Assembly (NCBI GenBank): GCA_016199545.1
Contig: JACQGN010000189.1
Span: 1 to 35,052, forward strand
Direction: 5' to 3'
DNA: 35,052 nt
Source of the DNA: Betaproteobacteria bacterium
Lineage (GTDB): Bacteria; Pseudomonadota; Gammaproteobacteria; Burkholderiales; SG8-41
The notes under the pieces are model-generated. The model did not search any database, was not told the origin of the DNA, and saw only the letters and a list, made by a program, of their open reading frames with translations. A program made the translations under genes and the position numbers. Below, one piece after another: positions 3,897-12,829 of this stretch (within the stretch, counting starts at the first letter, position 1; every line of letters begins with the position of its first letter).

Positions 3897-3968
3897 AATA
3901 ATCGGGGCCGCCATGTTCTGCGCGCCACGGCGCGCGATGAGACGGTGGCCGACTGCGATGGAGGCGTA

Positions 3969-4937
3969 ATGAAGAGTCTGATTGCGGGTGTAGTGCTGCT
4001 GGCATCGTTTCCAGTCACCGCATGGGCGCAGGCGTTCCAACCCAGCCGCCCGGTCGAGATCATCGTGCACAACGCGCCCGGAGGCGGCTCCGATCTCCTC
4101 GCCCGGTTCATCAGCACGCTGCTCGAAAAGGAGAAGCTCTTGCCGGTGCGAACACAGGTGAACAACCGCCCGGGCGGCGGCAGCGCGCTGGCAATGGCAT
4201 ACATGGCCGAAAAGCGCGGAGACCCGCACACCATCGCTCTCTTTACTTCCGCCTGGATGATGACGCCGATCCTGTCCGCCGAGGCGAAAGCGGGCTTCTA
4301 CGACATGACGCCGATCGCGCGCCTCGTGCTCGAATCCTCGCTCGTCGTGGTCAAGGCCGATTCACCGTACCGCACGCTGCAGGATTTCATCGAGGCGGCG
4401 AAGAAGGAACCGGGAAAACTCAAGCAGTCGGGTGGATCGGTGCAGACCCGCGGCAACTTCGTGCGCCTGATCCTGCAACGTTCGACCGGCGCGCGCTGGT
4501 CGTATATTTCTTTCCCGGGCGGCGGCGAGCGCATCGCGGCGCTGCTCGGCGGACACGTGGAGATTCTGATGGCGGAGCCGCAGGAACTGGGCGAGTACAT
4601 CCGCAATGGACAGTTGCGTGCCGTCGCGCAGATCACCGAAAAACGCCTGGCACGATTTCCTGACGTGCCGACGCTGCGCGAGGCCGGATTCAACGTCCAC
4701 AGCGATCCCACCATCCGCGGGGCGGTCGCTCCGCCGAGAACGGCAAAGCACGTCGTGGCGTACTGGGAAGAAGTGTTCGCGCGAATGGTGAAGACCGAGG
4801 GATGGCGCAAGTACCTGGAGGACAATCAGTTCGAAGACGGTTTCCAGCGCGGCGATGAACTGCTGAAATCGTCGAAAGAGTTCGTCGCGCGCATGCGCGA
4901 GATGCTCAAGGACGCGGGACTCAAGGTTTACCGTTAG
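3969..4937 (+). CDS. Bug/TctC-family tripartite tricarboxylate transporter substrate-binding protein (copy 2)
   Basis: The protein has 322 residues. The frame also has an upstream start at 3945, but ATG at 3969 has GGAGG seven bases before it and opens directly into a signal peptide (MKSLIAGVVLLASFPVTAWAQ). The mature protein shows VEIIVHNAPGGGSDLLARF, VNNRPGGGSALAMAY and ISFPGGGERIAALLGGHVEI. The C-terminal part has DVPTLREAGFNVHSDPTIRGAVAPPRTAK. The NAPGGGSD variant and the short LKVYR ending set it apart from the other copies here, so it belongs to a different receptor subgroup. It would deliver a small anionic or carboxylated ligand to a permease encoded elsewhere. It converges with the minus-strand Asp-box gene, whose stop lies 9 bases away. 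Confidence 0.93.
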   Translation: MKSLIAGVVLLASFPVTAWAQAFQPSRPVEIIVHNAPGGGSDLLARFISTLLEKEKLLPVRTQVNNRPGGGSALAMAYMAEKRGDPHTIALFTSAWMMTPILSAEAKAGFYDMTPIARLVLESSLVVVKADSPYRTLQDFIEAAKKEPGKLKQSGGSVQTRGNFVRLILQRSTGARWSYISFPGGGERIAALLGGHVEILMAEPQELGEYIRNGQLRAVAQITEKRLARFPDVPTLREAGFNVHSDPTIRGAVAPPRTAKHVVAYWEEVFARMVKTEGWRKYLEDNQFEDGFQRGDELLKSSKEFVARMREMLKDAGLKVYR

Positions 4938-4946
4938 CGCCGTGCC

Positions 4947-6020
4947 TCAGGCGCAGGCGACGGCGTAGACGTCTTCCACTCCGGCGGGCAGCGGGTACTC
5001 GCGCCAGGTTACCCCGGTGTCCTCGGTGCCGAACACCTGGCCGCAGCGCGAGGCGCAGTAGACGCGCGCCGGCTCGCGCGGGTGCGCGGCGACGGCCATC
5101 ATGGTGCCGCGCGCCGTAACACCGTGATCGAAGCGGCGCCACGTGTTCCCCAGGTCATCGCTGCGGTAGAGCGAACCGTTGTTGCCGCGGGCAGCGACCG
5201 ACAGGCACGCGTACATGATGCGCCCATCGTGCGGCGCGACGATCACGTCGCGACAGTAGGTCAGGGGCGAAAAGCGCCCGATTTCGACATCACGCCAGGA
5301 CCCACCCCGGTCATCGCTGCGGAACAGCCCCATGCGCACGGCAAGGAAAGCCGTGCCGGGGGCTGCCGCGCTCACGGCGAAGGCGTGCGAGTCGAGCATG
5401 CCCTCCGCGTCGATGTCGCTGCCGATGCAGCTTTTCAGGTGTGGCGCGTCGGCGAGCCGGATGAGCGGCGCGGAGAGGTCCGTCCACGTTTCGCCGCCAT
5501 CGTCGCTGCGGATGACGCCGCTCACCTCGAGCGCCGCATACACGTCATCGGGCCGCCCCGGATCGGCGACGATGCGCGTCACCCGCGCGGGAAACCCCAT
5601 TTCACAGTGGCCGGGCGACCTGGCTCCGGGGAGCCGGCACCAGGTGTCGCCGCCGTCTTCGCTGCGATAAATGCCGATGGGCGCGACGCCGGCATACATG
5701 ACTTCCGGCCGCGTGGGATGAAATGCGAGCGACCACACCACGGCGCCGCGCTCAGGAAATCCGAGCCGCTCCCACCGCGCGCCGCCATCGGTCGTGCGGT
5801 AGGGACCGTCCTGCGTTCCCACGTACAACACATCGTGCTCGCGCGGATGCACGGCGAACGCACGCGCCTCGACATTCTCCGGCAAGCCGGCGGTGAGCGG
5901 CTCCCATTGCCCACCATCGGGAGCGCGGCGGAACAGTCCGCCTGGATGGCGCGCGCCGCTGCCGGATACCCAATGCCCCGCTCCCGCGAAAATACGGGTT
6001 GCGCGGCGCGTGGCATTCAC
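4947..6020 (-). CDS. Asp-box (BNR) repeat beta-propeller protein
   Basis: A GTG at 6020 overlaps the stop of the upstream YciI gene as GTGA, so translational coupling is likely; this start gives 357 residues. Six Asp-box repeats of the S/T-x-D-x-G-x-T/S-W type are visible: YRTTDGGARWERL, YRSEDGGDTWCRL, IRSDDGGETWTDL, FRSDDRGGSWRDV, YRSDDLGNTWRRF and FGTEDTGVTWREY. They are spaced as in the sialidase, VPS10 and Ycf48-type propellers. There is no obvious signal peptide and no sialidase Arg triad or FRIP motif, so a glycosidase call is not supported. It may be a scaffold or ligand-binding propeller. Annotation pipelines tend to call such proteins exo-alpha-sialidase or WD40/YVTN/BNR-like. It appears to be the last gene of a minus-strand run with the OsmC-like and YciI genes. 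Confidence 0.85.
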   Translation of the reverse strand: MNATRRATRIFAGAGHWVSGSGARHPGGLFRRAPDGGQWEPLTAGLPENVEARAFAVHPREHDVLYVGTQDGPYRTTDGGARWERLGFPERGAVVWSLAFHPTRPEVMYAGVAPIGIYRSEDGGDTWCRLPGARSPGHCEMGFPARVTRIVADPGRPDDVYAALEVSGVIRSDDGGETWTDLSAPLIRLADAPHLKSCIGSDIDAEGMLDSHAFAVSAAAPGTAFLAVRMGLFRSDDRGGSWRDVEIGRFSPLTYCRDVIVAPHDGRIMYACLSVAARGNNGSLYRSDDLGNTWRRFDHGVTARGTMMAVAAHPREPARVYCASRCGQVFGTEDTGVTWREYPLPAGVEDVYAVACA

Positions 6021-6319
6021 GCGCCCTCCGCCGCCGCGGGATTCCACTGGCCCTTGCGCATGCGCGTAACCGTGATATTGGCGAACACGCCGGCCTTGGT
6101 GAAGGGATCGCCGTCGGAGAACGCTTTGGCCTCGGCCCGGCTTCCCACGTTGACGATGAAGAGGCTGCCGATCGCTTCCGTGCCGCCGTCGTTCTGCGTC
6201 GCGCCCGCGAGCACCAGGATACCCTTCTGGCTTTGCAGGTAATCGCGGTGCGGCTGCAGGTTGCCAGCACGGATCGCGGCGGTGTTCGGCTTGTCAATGC
6301 AGGAAATGGCCCAAAGCAT
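6017..6319 (-). CDS. YciI-like protein (ferredoxin-like alpha/beta fold)
   Basis: The product has 100 residues starting at MLWAISCIDKP. The core matches the YciI/YCII domain: an N-terminal strand, HRDYLQSQKG with the conserved His24-x-Asp pair, GILVLAGATQNDGG, then GSLFIVNVGSRAEAKAFSDGDPF and VFANITVTRMRKGQWN. YciI-type proteins are small dimeric ferredoxin-fold proteins. The fold is shared with muconolactone isomerase, and the His-Asp pair has been proposed as catalytic, but no general reaction is established. The stop codon overlaps the start of the Asp-box gene. The OsmC-like gene ends about 105 bases upstream on the same strand, so all three may be one transcript. Confidence 0.88.
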   Translation of the reverse strand: MLWAISCIDKPNTAAIRAGNLQPHRDYLQSQKGILVLAGATQNDGGTEAIGSLFIVNVGSRAEAKAFSDGDPFTKAGVFANITVTRMRKGQWNPAAAEGA

Positions 6320-6424
6320 GTTCTGTCTCCCGTGGATTTGGTTGGTGTGATGTGTCACGCGCGGCGCAGCGCATATCGGACCCATGATAACGGCTCCGCT
6401 GCGCTCCGGGAGTCCGCACTCCGG

Positions 6425-6988
6425 TCAGGGCTCCCGCGTCACGCCTTCGATATGGAATGGCTTGCCGTTTACCTCGACCGTGCTGTTGAGGGGAACGGAC
6501 TGGACGATCAGACCCTCCGCAAAGCAGCCGTTCTTGGCGTTGCGTATGAGGTGCGCCAGCCGGTCGGCCGGTGCGTCACTCTCGATGGAAAGATGAGTGT
6601 CGACTCCGTCCCAGCGGTTATACACGGTTCCCTTGAGCACGGAGCCGCCGAGGAACTTCCTGAAACGCACCTTGGAGCTCGCCTTCGTCACCGTGATCTT
6701 CATCATGTGCGCGTACCGCGCAACCTGGGTGAGCAGTCAGAACCCGGTGCCCATCGCCATGTAGGACATCGGCGACGGGTACTTGTCGGTGCCGCCGATG
6801 CGCGCCGCTTCGTCGCTGAACACCTCGAACTTGCCGATCGTGCCGCGCTTCAGGTGCATCTCGCCCGCGACCACCTCGGTGTAGACCTCGGAATCGGTGG
6901 ACACACCCTGCGGCGGAAGTTCGGGTTTGTCGATGATGCGCTGGCCGATTTCGCTGGGGAGATTCATGCCGTCGACGGGTTTCTCCAT
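6425..6988 (-). CDS. OsmC-like peroxiredoxin-type protein, probable selenoprotein with in-frame TGA (Sec84)
   Basis: Read through one TGA (6737-6739), a single frame runs from ATG 6988, after the ribosome-binding site GAGGAAG, to a stop at 6425: 187 residues. The N-terminal half ends in KYPSPMSYMAMGTGF, and the frame continues LLTQVARYAHMMKITVTKA. In OsmC/YhfA-type proteins this segment carries the peroxidatic Cys, in the pattern P-S-P...G-x-G-F-C-x-x-T. The TGA sits exactly at that Cys. The second family Cys is kept (NAKNGC-FAEG, Cys155), and the rest (GVDTHLSIESDAPADRLAHLI) is normal and free of stops. Conventional gene finding would split this into an 83-residue and a 93-residue piece. OsmC proteins reduce organic hydroperoxides; Sec would replace the attacking thiol. 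A TGC-to-TGA nonsense mutation remains possible. Sec machinery is not in this window. Confidence 0.8.
6707..6724 (-). promoter_or_regulatory. Bacterial SECIS-like stem-loop just downstream of the in-frame TGA
   Basis: In the RNA sense the UGA is followed by 19 nucleotides and then a compact hairpin. G6721-C-G-C-G6717 pairs with C6713-G-C-G-C6709 around the triloop GUA; opening the top pair gives a GGUAC loop. U6722 is bulged, and U6723-G6724 pair with A6708-C6707 below it. The bulged U, the GGU at the apex and the spacing resemble the E. coli fdhF SECIS, in which a GGUUGC stem carries a bulged U and a GGUCU loop about 18 nucleotides after UGA. The element lies inside the coding sequence, as expected for bacteria. 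The stem codons encode conserved-looking residues, so part of the pairing could be coincidental in GC-rich DNA. Confidence 0.6.
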
Positions 6989-7044
6989 GTCGCTTCCTCG
7001 ATTGTGAATGGTGCAGCAGCAATACTACCGTACCCATTCACCCA

Positions 7045-10640: not shown

Positions 10641-11618
10641 TTAGCCGGCCTTCGCGCCGGACACTTCGATCACCTTCCTCCACTTCACGGTCTCGCTCCG
10701 CACGAACGCGGCCAGCTCTTCGGGCGTGCCGGGCGAGGGAACCGCGCCTTGCGACAGCAGCCAGGCCTCGGCGGTGGGCGCGCGCAGAATCTCCACCATA
10801 TCGCGGTTGAGCTTTTCGATAAGCGCATTTGACGTGCGTGCCGGGGCAAACATTCCGAACCACGCCGTCGATTCGAACCCGCGCAGCCCCGCTTCGTCCG
10901 CCGTTGGAATTTCCGGCGCTCCCGAAAAACGCTGCCTGCTCGTGATCGCGTACGCTTTGACCTTGCCGGCCTTCACCTGCGGCAAGGCATTGGGCACTAC
11001 GATCGCAGATACCGGTACCTCGCCACTCACCAGCGCCATGGTCGCCGCGCCGGAACCCTTGTAAGGGATATGCAAGAGCTTGATGCCGGCAGTGTAAACC
11101 AGCATCTCCATCGTCAGATGACTTCCCGTGCCGTTGCTGGCCGAGGAATAGCTGATCGCGCCCGGCCGTTTCTTCGCGTAATCGATGAACTCGCGCAGGC
11201 TCGCCGCCGGCAGCGACGGATGGGCGATGAATATCAGGGGCACGTCGGCGAAGCGCGTGATCGGCGCGAAGTCCTTGACCGGATCGTACGACAGTTTCGT
11301 ATAGAGGCTCACGGCAGCCGCGAACGAGGCGAGCTGTCCGATGTGCAGCGTGTAGCCGTCGGGCGCCGCCTTGGCGGCGACATCAGCGGCGATCGTGGCG
11401 CCAGCACCCGAGCGGTTGTCCACAATGAGCTGCACGCCCCAGCGCACGTTGAGCTGTTGCGCGAGGTAGCGCGCAAGCAGGTCTCCGGTCGTACCCGCCG
11501 TCGCGGCAACGATGCGAACCGGCTTCACCGGAAAGTTTTGCGCGTATGCGGCCATGCCGATCAACATCACGCCGCTCCCGATAACGCAACAAAGTGCTGC
11601 AGAAAACCATCGCTTCAT
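10641..11618 (-). CDS. Bug/TctC-family tripartite tricarboxylate transporter substrate-binding protein (copy 3)
   Basis: The protein has 325 residues from ATG 11618, which is preceded by GGGAGGG. The signal peptide is MKRWFSAALCCVIGSGVMLI followed by GMAAYAQ. Family landmarks are VRIVAATAGTTGDLLARYLAQ, LIVDNRSGAGATIAADVAA, APDGYTLHIGQLAS, LSYDPVKDFAPI, SSASNGTGSHLTMEML and IPYKGSGAATMALVSGEV. The end of the second domain reads ADEAGLRGFESTAWFGMFAPART. It is the downstream member of a minus-strand pair with copy 4; the 68-base gap has no clear terminator, so they are probably one transcript. Its stop faces the ChrB-type gene, making the two convergent. Ligand unknown. Confidence 0.94.
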   Translation of the reverse strand: MKRWFSAALCCVIGSGVMLIGMAAYAQNFPVKPVRIVAATAGTTGDLLARYLAQQLNVRWGVQLIVDNRSGAGATIAADVAAKAAPDGYTLHIGQLASFAAAVSLYTKLSYDPVKDFAPITRFADVPLIFIAHPSLPAASLREFIDYAKKRPGAISYSSASNGTGSHLTMEMLVYTAGIKLLHIPYKGSGAATMALVSGEVPVSAIVVPNALPQVKAGKVKAYAITSRQRFSGAPEIPTADEAGLRGFESTAWFGMFAPARTSNALIEKLNRDMVEILRAPTAEAWLLSQGAVPSPGTPEELAAFVRSETVKWRKVIEVSGAKAG

Positions 11619-11686
11619 GATTCGCCCTCCCAGTGTTTGAGACGCAATTTCGGTCGCTCCTCGCCCCGTTTCCCGTCGCGACGCCA

Positions 11687-12688
11687 TCAGTCAATCTTCA
11701 CCCCCGCGCGCTTCACGACATCGGCCCACTTTGCGGCTTCCTTCCTGATGTGTTCGGTAAACTGCTCGGGCGTGCCGCCAAAAAGCTCGTAGCCCAGTGC
11801 GGTGAGTTTCCCGCCGACTGCGGGAGATGCAAGCGCCTTGTTGATCTCCGCGTTGAGCCGGTTAACGATGGCCTTCGGCGTCCTGGCCGGCGCGATGATG
11901 CCTGCCCACGCGATGACCTCGAAGCCCGGCAGGCCCGCCTCGGAGACCGTCGGCAGCTCGGGAAAGGCGACCGAGCGCTTGCGGCTCGTCACCGCAAGGC
12001 CCCGCAGCCGGCCCGCTCTCACGTGCGGCTCGATCGACGCGACGCTGTTGAACATCAGGTGCACGCGCCCCGCGATCATGTCCGTCATCGCGAGCTGCAC
12101 TGCCTTGAACGGCACGTGCACCATCTGCGTGCCGCTCATCAACTTGAACAGCTCGCCGCCGAGGTGGAACGTAGTGCCGTTGCCGCTCGACGCGAAAAGC
12201 AGCGCCCCCGGGTGCTTCTTCGCGTGATCGATCAAGCCGCGCACCGACTTCACCGGAAGTGACGGCGTGACCGCCAGCAGGTTGGGCGTGAAGTAAAACG
12301 GCGCGATCGCTTGAAAGTCCTTGGCCGAATCGTAGGGAATCTTCGGCACGAGGCTGCGCATGATCGCCAGCGCGGGCGTGAGGCCCTGGCCGATGGTGTA
12401 ACCATCGGGCGCGGCCTTGGCAATCAGGTCGGTGCCGATGATGCCGCTCGCCCCGACGCGATTATCGACCACGAATTGCTGCCCCATCTGCCGGCTGAGT
12501 TCCGCGGTCAGGATGCGCGCGGTGATGTCCGGCGAGCCCGCGGGGGCGGACGGCACGATGTAGCGCACGGGACGTATGGGATATTCGGCTGCCGCGGAGG
12601 CCGCAACAGGCCACGCGATGAAAGTGAGACAGGCGGCGCAATACGCTGCGCTATTGCGCCCTACGAGCTGCGTGCGTAGCTGGAACAT
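11687..12688 (-). CDS. Bug/TctC-family tripartite tricarboxylate transporter substrate-binding protein (copy 4)
   Basis: The frame is open to 12775. ATG at 12688 starts just before a plausible signal region (RNSAAYCAACLTFIAWPVAASAAA), giving 333 residues; no strong ribosome-binding site is seen, so the start is uncertain. The mature protein has VRYIVPSAPAGSPDITARIL, FVVDNRVGASGIIGTDLIAKA, APDGYTIGQGLTPALAI, SSGNGTTFHLGGELFKL and VPFKAVQLAMTDMIAGRV. The second domain contains SEAGLPGFEVIAWAGIIAPART. It is divergent from the VOC gene, with about 140 bases between them, and followed by copy 3. Two adjacent receptors without permeases may serve a shared transporter elsewhere. Confidence 0.93.
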   Translation of the reverse strand: MFQLRTQLVGRNSAAYCAACLTFIAWPVAASAAAEYPIRPVRYIVPSAPAGSPDITARILTAELSRQMGQQFVVDNRVGASGIIGTDLIAKAAPDGYTIGQGLTPALAIMRSLVPKIPYDSAKDFQAIAPFYFTPNLLAVTPSLPVKSVRGLIDHAKKHPGALLFASSGNGTTFHLGGELFKLMSGTQMVHVPFKAVQLAMTDMIAGRVHLMFNSVASIEPHVRAGRLRGLAVTSRKRSVAFPELPTVSEAGLPGFEVIAWAGIIAPARTPKAIVNRLNAEINKALASPAVGGKLTALGYELFGGTPEQFTEHIRKEAAKWADVVKRAGVKID

Positions 12689-12829
12689 GGGTTCGATACA
12701 TGCTAGGACAATGCACGCAACGTGTCGAGCACGAATAAGAACGTGCACGACTTCCTGACCGGCAAAACGCGGCACGCCCTCGCACGCGGGAGCGCAATGC
12801 TAAAATTCGCCTCCCGATCCGGAGGAAGC

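Follow-up and report, generated by a model that had tools for sequence, protein, structure and literature searches.

PMC5962072 describes Ohr and OsmC as thiol peroxidases and states that peroxide reduction by Ohr needs an arginine and a glutamate around the first cysteine; in the X. fastidiosa Ohr the relevant residues are Arg19, Glu51, Cys61 and the resolving Cys125, with the glutamate lying ten positions before the first cysteine. OsmC-like proteins with selenocysteine (Sec) have been reported from marine metagenomes: the 2005 Sargasso Sea survey gives three, one of which is included in its SECIS figure (PMC1088965), and the GOS survey gives five with a UxxT motif (PMC2398784). The family is listed in a 2022 review (PMC9312934) and a 2026 review (PMC13188914), the latter treating differing Sec positions as separate subfamilies, and the word OsmC has no occurrence in PMC12013277 or PMC5029168. 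Here we analyze an OsmC-like gene in a 35,052-nucleotide stretch of betaproteobacterial DNA (hereafter the window). Based on comparative sequence evidence we propose, with a probability of about 0.94, that it codes for a full-length, 187-residue OsmC-fold selenoprotein in which UGA 84 would be decoded as Sec in a hairpin-dependent manner and in which U84 and C155 would constitute a redox cycle.

An in-frame TGA at the first redox position

The gene is a single frame with one in-frame TGA (Table 1). When the frame is read through this codon the motif surrounding it is G80-T-G-F-U84-L-L-T87, and the Pfam OsmC domain (PF02566; 41.9 bits against a cut-off of 27.5) covers residues 66-168 with the TGA inside it. 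Upon alignment with the E. coli OsmC, U84 corresponds to C59, while C155, which sits in AKNGCFAE opposite AKAGCPVS, corresponds to C125. The UxxT motif (U84-L-L-T87) with its flanking residues (GFULLTQ) and C155 are invariant in 34/34 aligned sequences, comprising the window gene and 33 relatives with the fragment L041 left out. Thus, an earlier sequence-only reading of this DNA correctly recognized the single frame with its lone TGA, the placement of that TGA at the catalytic cysteine between two OsmC-like flanks, and the retention of the second cysteine. Its expectation that standard annotation would break the gene need not hold, as a dedicated NCBIfam model, NF041052 ("OsmC-related (seleno)protein"), matches the window protein at 169 bits, far over its cut-off of 95. 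Based on this model and the UxxT motif the gene is a member of the previously predicted selenoprotein family and not of a new one; the link to the published OsmC-like selenoproteins is drawn from these two features. The window genome has one copy of the window-type gene, and the AlphaFold model of its product is of moderate quality (pLDDT 72, pTM 0.62).

Table 1. Positions of the OsmC-like gene, its key codons and nearby genes in the window
Feature	Position	Strand	Remark
OsmC-like selenoprotein gene (predicted), 187 codons	6425..6988	-	ATG at 6988; terminal TGA at 6425-6427
In-frame TGA, codon 84, at OsmC first redox Cys position, UxxT motif	6737..6739	-	
T87 of UxxT motif	6728-6730	-	
Codon 155, Cys, second redox position	6524..6526	-	aligned with OsmC resolving Cys
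Codon 74, Met, at place of Ohr catalytic Glu (Cys minus 10)	6767..6769	-	
GAGGAAG, Shine-Dalgarno-like, 5' of ATG	6993..6999	-	read from sequence
SECIS-like hairpin	6707..6724	-	synonymous freeze, folding, pair counts, resampling
YciI-domain gene (Pfam)	6017-6340	-	directly 3' of OsmC-like gene
Genes presumed to be tripartite-tricarboxylate-receptor-like	1668-2711, 3945-4937, 10641-11687, 11687-12775		

When the translated protein was searched against genome contigs, 34 relatives with 50-90% identity were recovered; in an agreement that goes beyond chance, all of them, counting the fragment L041 which begins one residue before the Sec site, have TGA at the position of codon 84, and none has another internal stop. 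Since the peptide patterns serving as search seeds exclude the TGA site, this uniformity is not a selection effect, and no Cys form is found among the 34. In an order-level sample of 399 genomes, which partly overlaps with the genomes of the 34 relatives and gives counts that are not independent of theirs, we obtained 22 matches in 12 genomes (the window genome included), of which 19 have the TGA; the remaining three are a fragment starting past the site and two weak matches (62-66 bits). The further stop seen within the match in three of the 19 (L071, L072, L074) is the gene's own end. Cysteine takes the Sec position in L078, L079 and L080 and in the structure PDB 3cje. Five of the 398 genomes in a phylum-level sample exceed the NF041052 cut-off, namely that of the window, which has the TGA, and four others in which the frame has no stop; the three of these four that were extracted all have Cys at the site.

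In principle, one base change in a TGC or TGT codon could give a lone in-frame stop at a Cys position, either as a sequencing error or in a young pseudogene, but the recurrence of the same TGA throughout the relatives and the purifying selection on both halves of the gene render this extremely improbable. The dN/dS values are 0.08-0.15 on the 3' side of the TGA as against 0.13-0.27 on the 5' side, being lower on the 3' side in 7/7 relatives compared; the low values downstream argue that this part is translated. The frame would likewise stay open if TGA stood genome-wide for Trp or another ordinary amino acid (code 4 or similar). However, the window gene and 16/34 relatives use TGA as their terminal stop, indicating that it still works as such here, the inspected Cys-form homologues have Cys and not Trp at the site, and the genome has a complete Sec pathway (see below); hence, we see virtually no chance of such a recoding.

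Two or more paralogues of the Sec-type OsmC-like gene occur together in certain assemblies (L013/L036, L023/L037, L025/L039 and L035/L040), and one genome of the order sample (G131) has four matches to the window-type gene. L071, L072 and L076 belong to a more diverged paralogue clade (GS/GA-ULLTQVSRY) in which the TGA is present and the hairpin discussed below is kept via compensatory changes. L075 (G169:C98:9258-9512) is a paralogue fragment that matches only from residue 94, past the Sec site, and is possibly a remnant.

The SECIS-like hairpin and the Sec machinery

Directly 3' of the TGA we identified a hairpin formed by bases 16-33, with the T of the TGA taken as base 1. G16 pairs with C33, U17 is unpaired, and a stem of bases 18-22/28-32 (UGCGC/GCGCA, with the pairs U18-A32, G19-C31, C20-G30, G21-C29 and C22-G28) bears the loop GGUAC, which places G/GU in the apical loop; RNAfold closes an additional G-C within this loop, leaving GUA. 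Across the 34 aligned genes codons 90-92 have a codon identity of 1.00 and codons 89, 93 and 94 one of 0.88-0.94, while the mean over codons 85-95 is 0.81 against 0.52 at 167 other codons. Among 23 distinct sequences the pair 18-32 is U-A in 17, G-C in four, C-G in one and unpaired in one, and the pair 19-31 is G-C in 18, U-A in three and G-U in two; moreover, two diverged paralogue clades differ in their amino acids while retaining the hairpin pairs. The double-sided changes in eight cells and the covariation score of 0.234 were each matched by 0/500 shuffles and by no slid register, the cells being non-independent because clades share changes. Two of the five pair measures in all do not go beyond chance in the shuffles, namely the count of doubly changed pairs (2, equalled in 129/500) and the number of further pair types (5, equalled in 97/500). 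L030 breaks two of the pairs, and its stretch folds in an alternative pairing with a z-score of -2.61.

The folding energy of the window gene is unexceptional both for the first 50 bases (z +0.47, with 137/200 shuffles equally good) and for the 29-base core (z -0.86, 40/200 shuffles). As the minimum free energy is not significant, the case for a SECIS rests on the pair changes and the synonymous constraint. Upon synonymous resampling 88/20000 recoded versions match the observed 5-bp stem with a GGT loop; by the same stem rule 34/35 genes score 5 and L030 scores 4, which is also the score of the E. coli fdhF element used as a yardstick. Under a looser rule that allows any G in the loop, 358/20000 versions match the observed score of 6 for the window gene. 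In an Rfam scan of positions 6400-7000 no family fits the hairpin, and the one chance match, which lies elsewhere, scores 14.8 bits where the gathering score is 40.

These observations also bear on a reading in which the TGA is a true stop that yields an N-terminal protein of 83 residues, while translation of the frame 3' of it starts internally at ATG 6706. An ORF (6425-6706) indeed opens with an ATG past the TGA. Nevertheless, the OsmC domain extends over the TGA, the residues on either side of it are invariant, and a synonymous freeze coincides with a covarying hairpin at the place expected of a SECIS, all of which make such a split arrangement very unlikely.

The window assembly (4.41 Mb in 349 contigs, 78.7% complete) contains all the Sec genes that the sequence-only reading had proposed to look for. 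Genes for SelA and SelB are adjacent on contig C258, both above curated cut-offs; the tRNA-Sec gene (selC) with the anticodon TCA is on C314, above its curated cut-off and confirmed by ARAGORN; and selD is on C89 (G000:C89:3105-4031, L050), again above the curated cut-off and itself with a TGA in GGGUGCK. The selD gene has a strong GGU-loop hairpin 3' of its TGA, at nearly the same distance as in the window gene; under the looser resampling rule it is matched by 206/20000 versions. Among the order genomes, selA (detected at E 1e-40) is found in 9/10 of those with the TGA form as against 109/399 overall, with the exception, G144, being 84% complete; the Fisher value for this association is 5e-5 with relatedness ignored.

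By sequence comparison, then, we find that the TGA is conserved, that the hairpin is kept through compensatory changes, that the Sec machinery is present and that two redox positions align. The TGA at codon 84 is very probably a Sec codon, in agreement with the earlier suggestion of a selenoprotein that was drawn from the letters of the window, and every computational check put forward with that suggestion speaks for it. Specifically, we posit that SelB and Sec-tRNA(Sec) would read UGA 84 as Sec once the ribosome meets the hairpin about 15 bases downstream.

A second OsmC-family selenoprotein candidate

A Pfam OsmC search of the window genome gave four matches, among them a second gene with a single in-frame TGA (G000:C169:33684-34127; also represented as locus L111 1375-1821 and L113 1501-1944), which codes for 148 residues and scores 36 bits against the cut-off of 27.5. 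Here the TGA is codon 127, in R-U-PLYGSV, and the alignment sets it opposite C155 of the window protein and opposite the Cys that is resolving in OsmC, while the first Cys is retained as C59, identical in 10/10 aligned sequences. The protein occurs in 10/399 order genomes, i.e., that of the window, eight others at 63-73% identity and one with a remote form. TGA is present at the Sec codon in 8/8 close homologues (9/9 with the window genome), whereas the remote form (34% identity) has Cys, encoded by TGC. All nine genomes with the TGA-bearing second type have selA, and six genomes of the order sample, including that of the window, have both OsmC types. In a phylum-level sample of 397 the only match beyond the window genome is 29% identical and has no stop.

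A 7-bp hairpin is found 3' of the second TGA in 9/9 genes, with the form GCGUCGC-RGUY-GCGACGC in eight and a U-A variant in L114. Its covariation is weak, consisting of one compensatory pair (C-G to U-A) that is reached in 48/500 shuffles, and under the looser resampling rule it is matched by 1433/20000 versions (7%), which is not significant alone. The second protein scores 33 bits with NF041052, below the cut-off. In a phylogenetic tree, which carries long-branch warnings, the five second-type rows group together (96/97) and are split from the first type by a 99/100 branch; the first type appears as a single group with support of only 43/85.

Within an open-licence library, the second type is absent from the selenoprotein tables that we searched, and further paper searches there listed no such protein. 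The accessible part of the 2026 review (PMC13188914) mentions OsmC and PF02566 once, as UxxT, with Ohr, hydroperoxide and COG1765 absent from that part. It seems likely from the aligned genes that both redox cysteines of one fold have turned into Sec within one cell, with the second gene representing a subfamily outside the searched inventories. This second selenoprotein candidate looks new and is the more novel result relative to the window gene. If it is real, the pair would permit selenium to be compared directly between the attacking and the resolving position of one and the same two-residue redox site.

Gene neighborhood, proposed redox chemistry and known systems

We also examined the neighborhood of the gene by tblastn of nine window neighbors against the 34 loci, in which no partner gene could be named. 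The YciI-domain gene has homologues within 5 kb in L011, where it is adjacent, and in L012-L016 at varying distances, lying just upstream in L014 and L015. An M24 peptidase and a BNR-like gene are near the OsmC-like gene only in L011, a syntenic relative, among the 34 loci. Receptor genes of the tripartite-tricarboxylate type are near it in 30/34 loci; as the window alone has several receptor-like genes, we take this proximity as background.

With respect to chemistry, we infer from the aligned redox positions a likely two-residue selenol/thiol cycle and a role in redox reactions or in the reduction of electrophiles. The nucleophile would be the selenolate of U84 in the UxxT motif, C155 might then resolve it as a selenenylsulfide, and a cellular thiol would reduce the latter. 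The sequence-only reading went further in calling the enzyme peroxide-reducing. Certain features are consistent with a reductase of organic hydroperoxides like Ohr and OsmC: the common fold family, the alignment of both redox positions with the two cysteines of OsmC, and the thiol peroxidase activity known for Ohr and OsmC (PMC5962072). Against this, the Ohr glutamate at Cys minus 10 is replaced by an invariant Met74 (34/34), the position after it is never Glu (24 sequences), and NF041052 is the sole NCBIfam model to match up to E 1, with no Ohr or OsmC peroxidase model among the matches. The Ohr glutamate is also absent from the inspected Cys relatives (L078-L080) and PDB 3cje. K47 and R48 are possible candidates for the catalytic arginine, in a stretch of the model (residues 41-51) with pLDDT below 50. 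The second Cys and the Glu site were assessed via sequence alignment and not model geometry. Hence, we hold the specific assignment as an Ohr/OsmC-type reductase to be a tentative one that is somewhat doubtful on the aligned residues, and the protein should not be taken for a peroxidase. An organic hydroperoxide would be only one substrate candidate for the proposed selenoenzyme, because the catalytic Glu of Ohr is missing.

In comparison to known systems, the window protein has the fold family in common with E. coli OsmC and X. fastidiosa Ohr, but its gene has TGA for Cys and Met for the Ohr Glu, and it has about 25 residues more than OsmC ahead of the redox site. The closest solved structure by both sequence and fold is PDB 3cje, an OsmC-like protein from Jannaschia, which has CxxT at the Sec position, no preceding Glu and its second Cys in AAKKGCF; it differs in being a Cys form, with 18% identity in the fold comparison. 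When the model is compared with the PDB this structure ranks first (E 5e-7) but with an rmsd of 15.1, for which reason we used it for the fold only. With the OsmC-like selenoproteins (NF041052/PF02566) the window gene shares the family model, the UxxT motif and a SECIS-like hairpin directly downstream. The two primary reports of that family considered here concern marine metagenomes (Sargasso and GOS), whereas the window gene belongs to a betaproteobacterial lineage with several paralogues in some genomes. Relative to these two surveys, the family is thus extended by a betaproteobacterial branch and gains a hairpin that is backed by compensatory changes.
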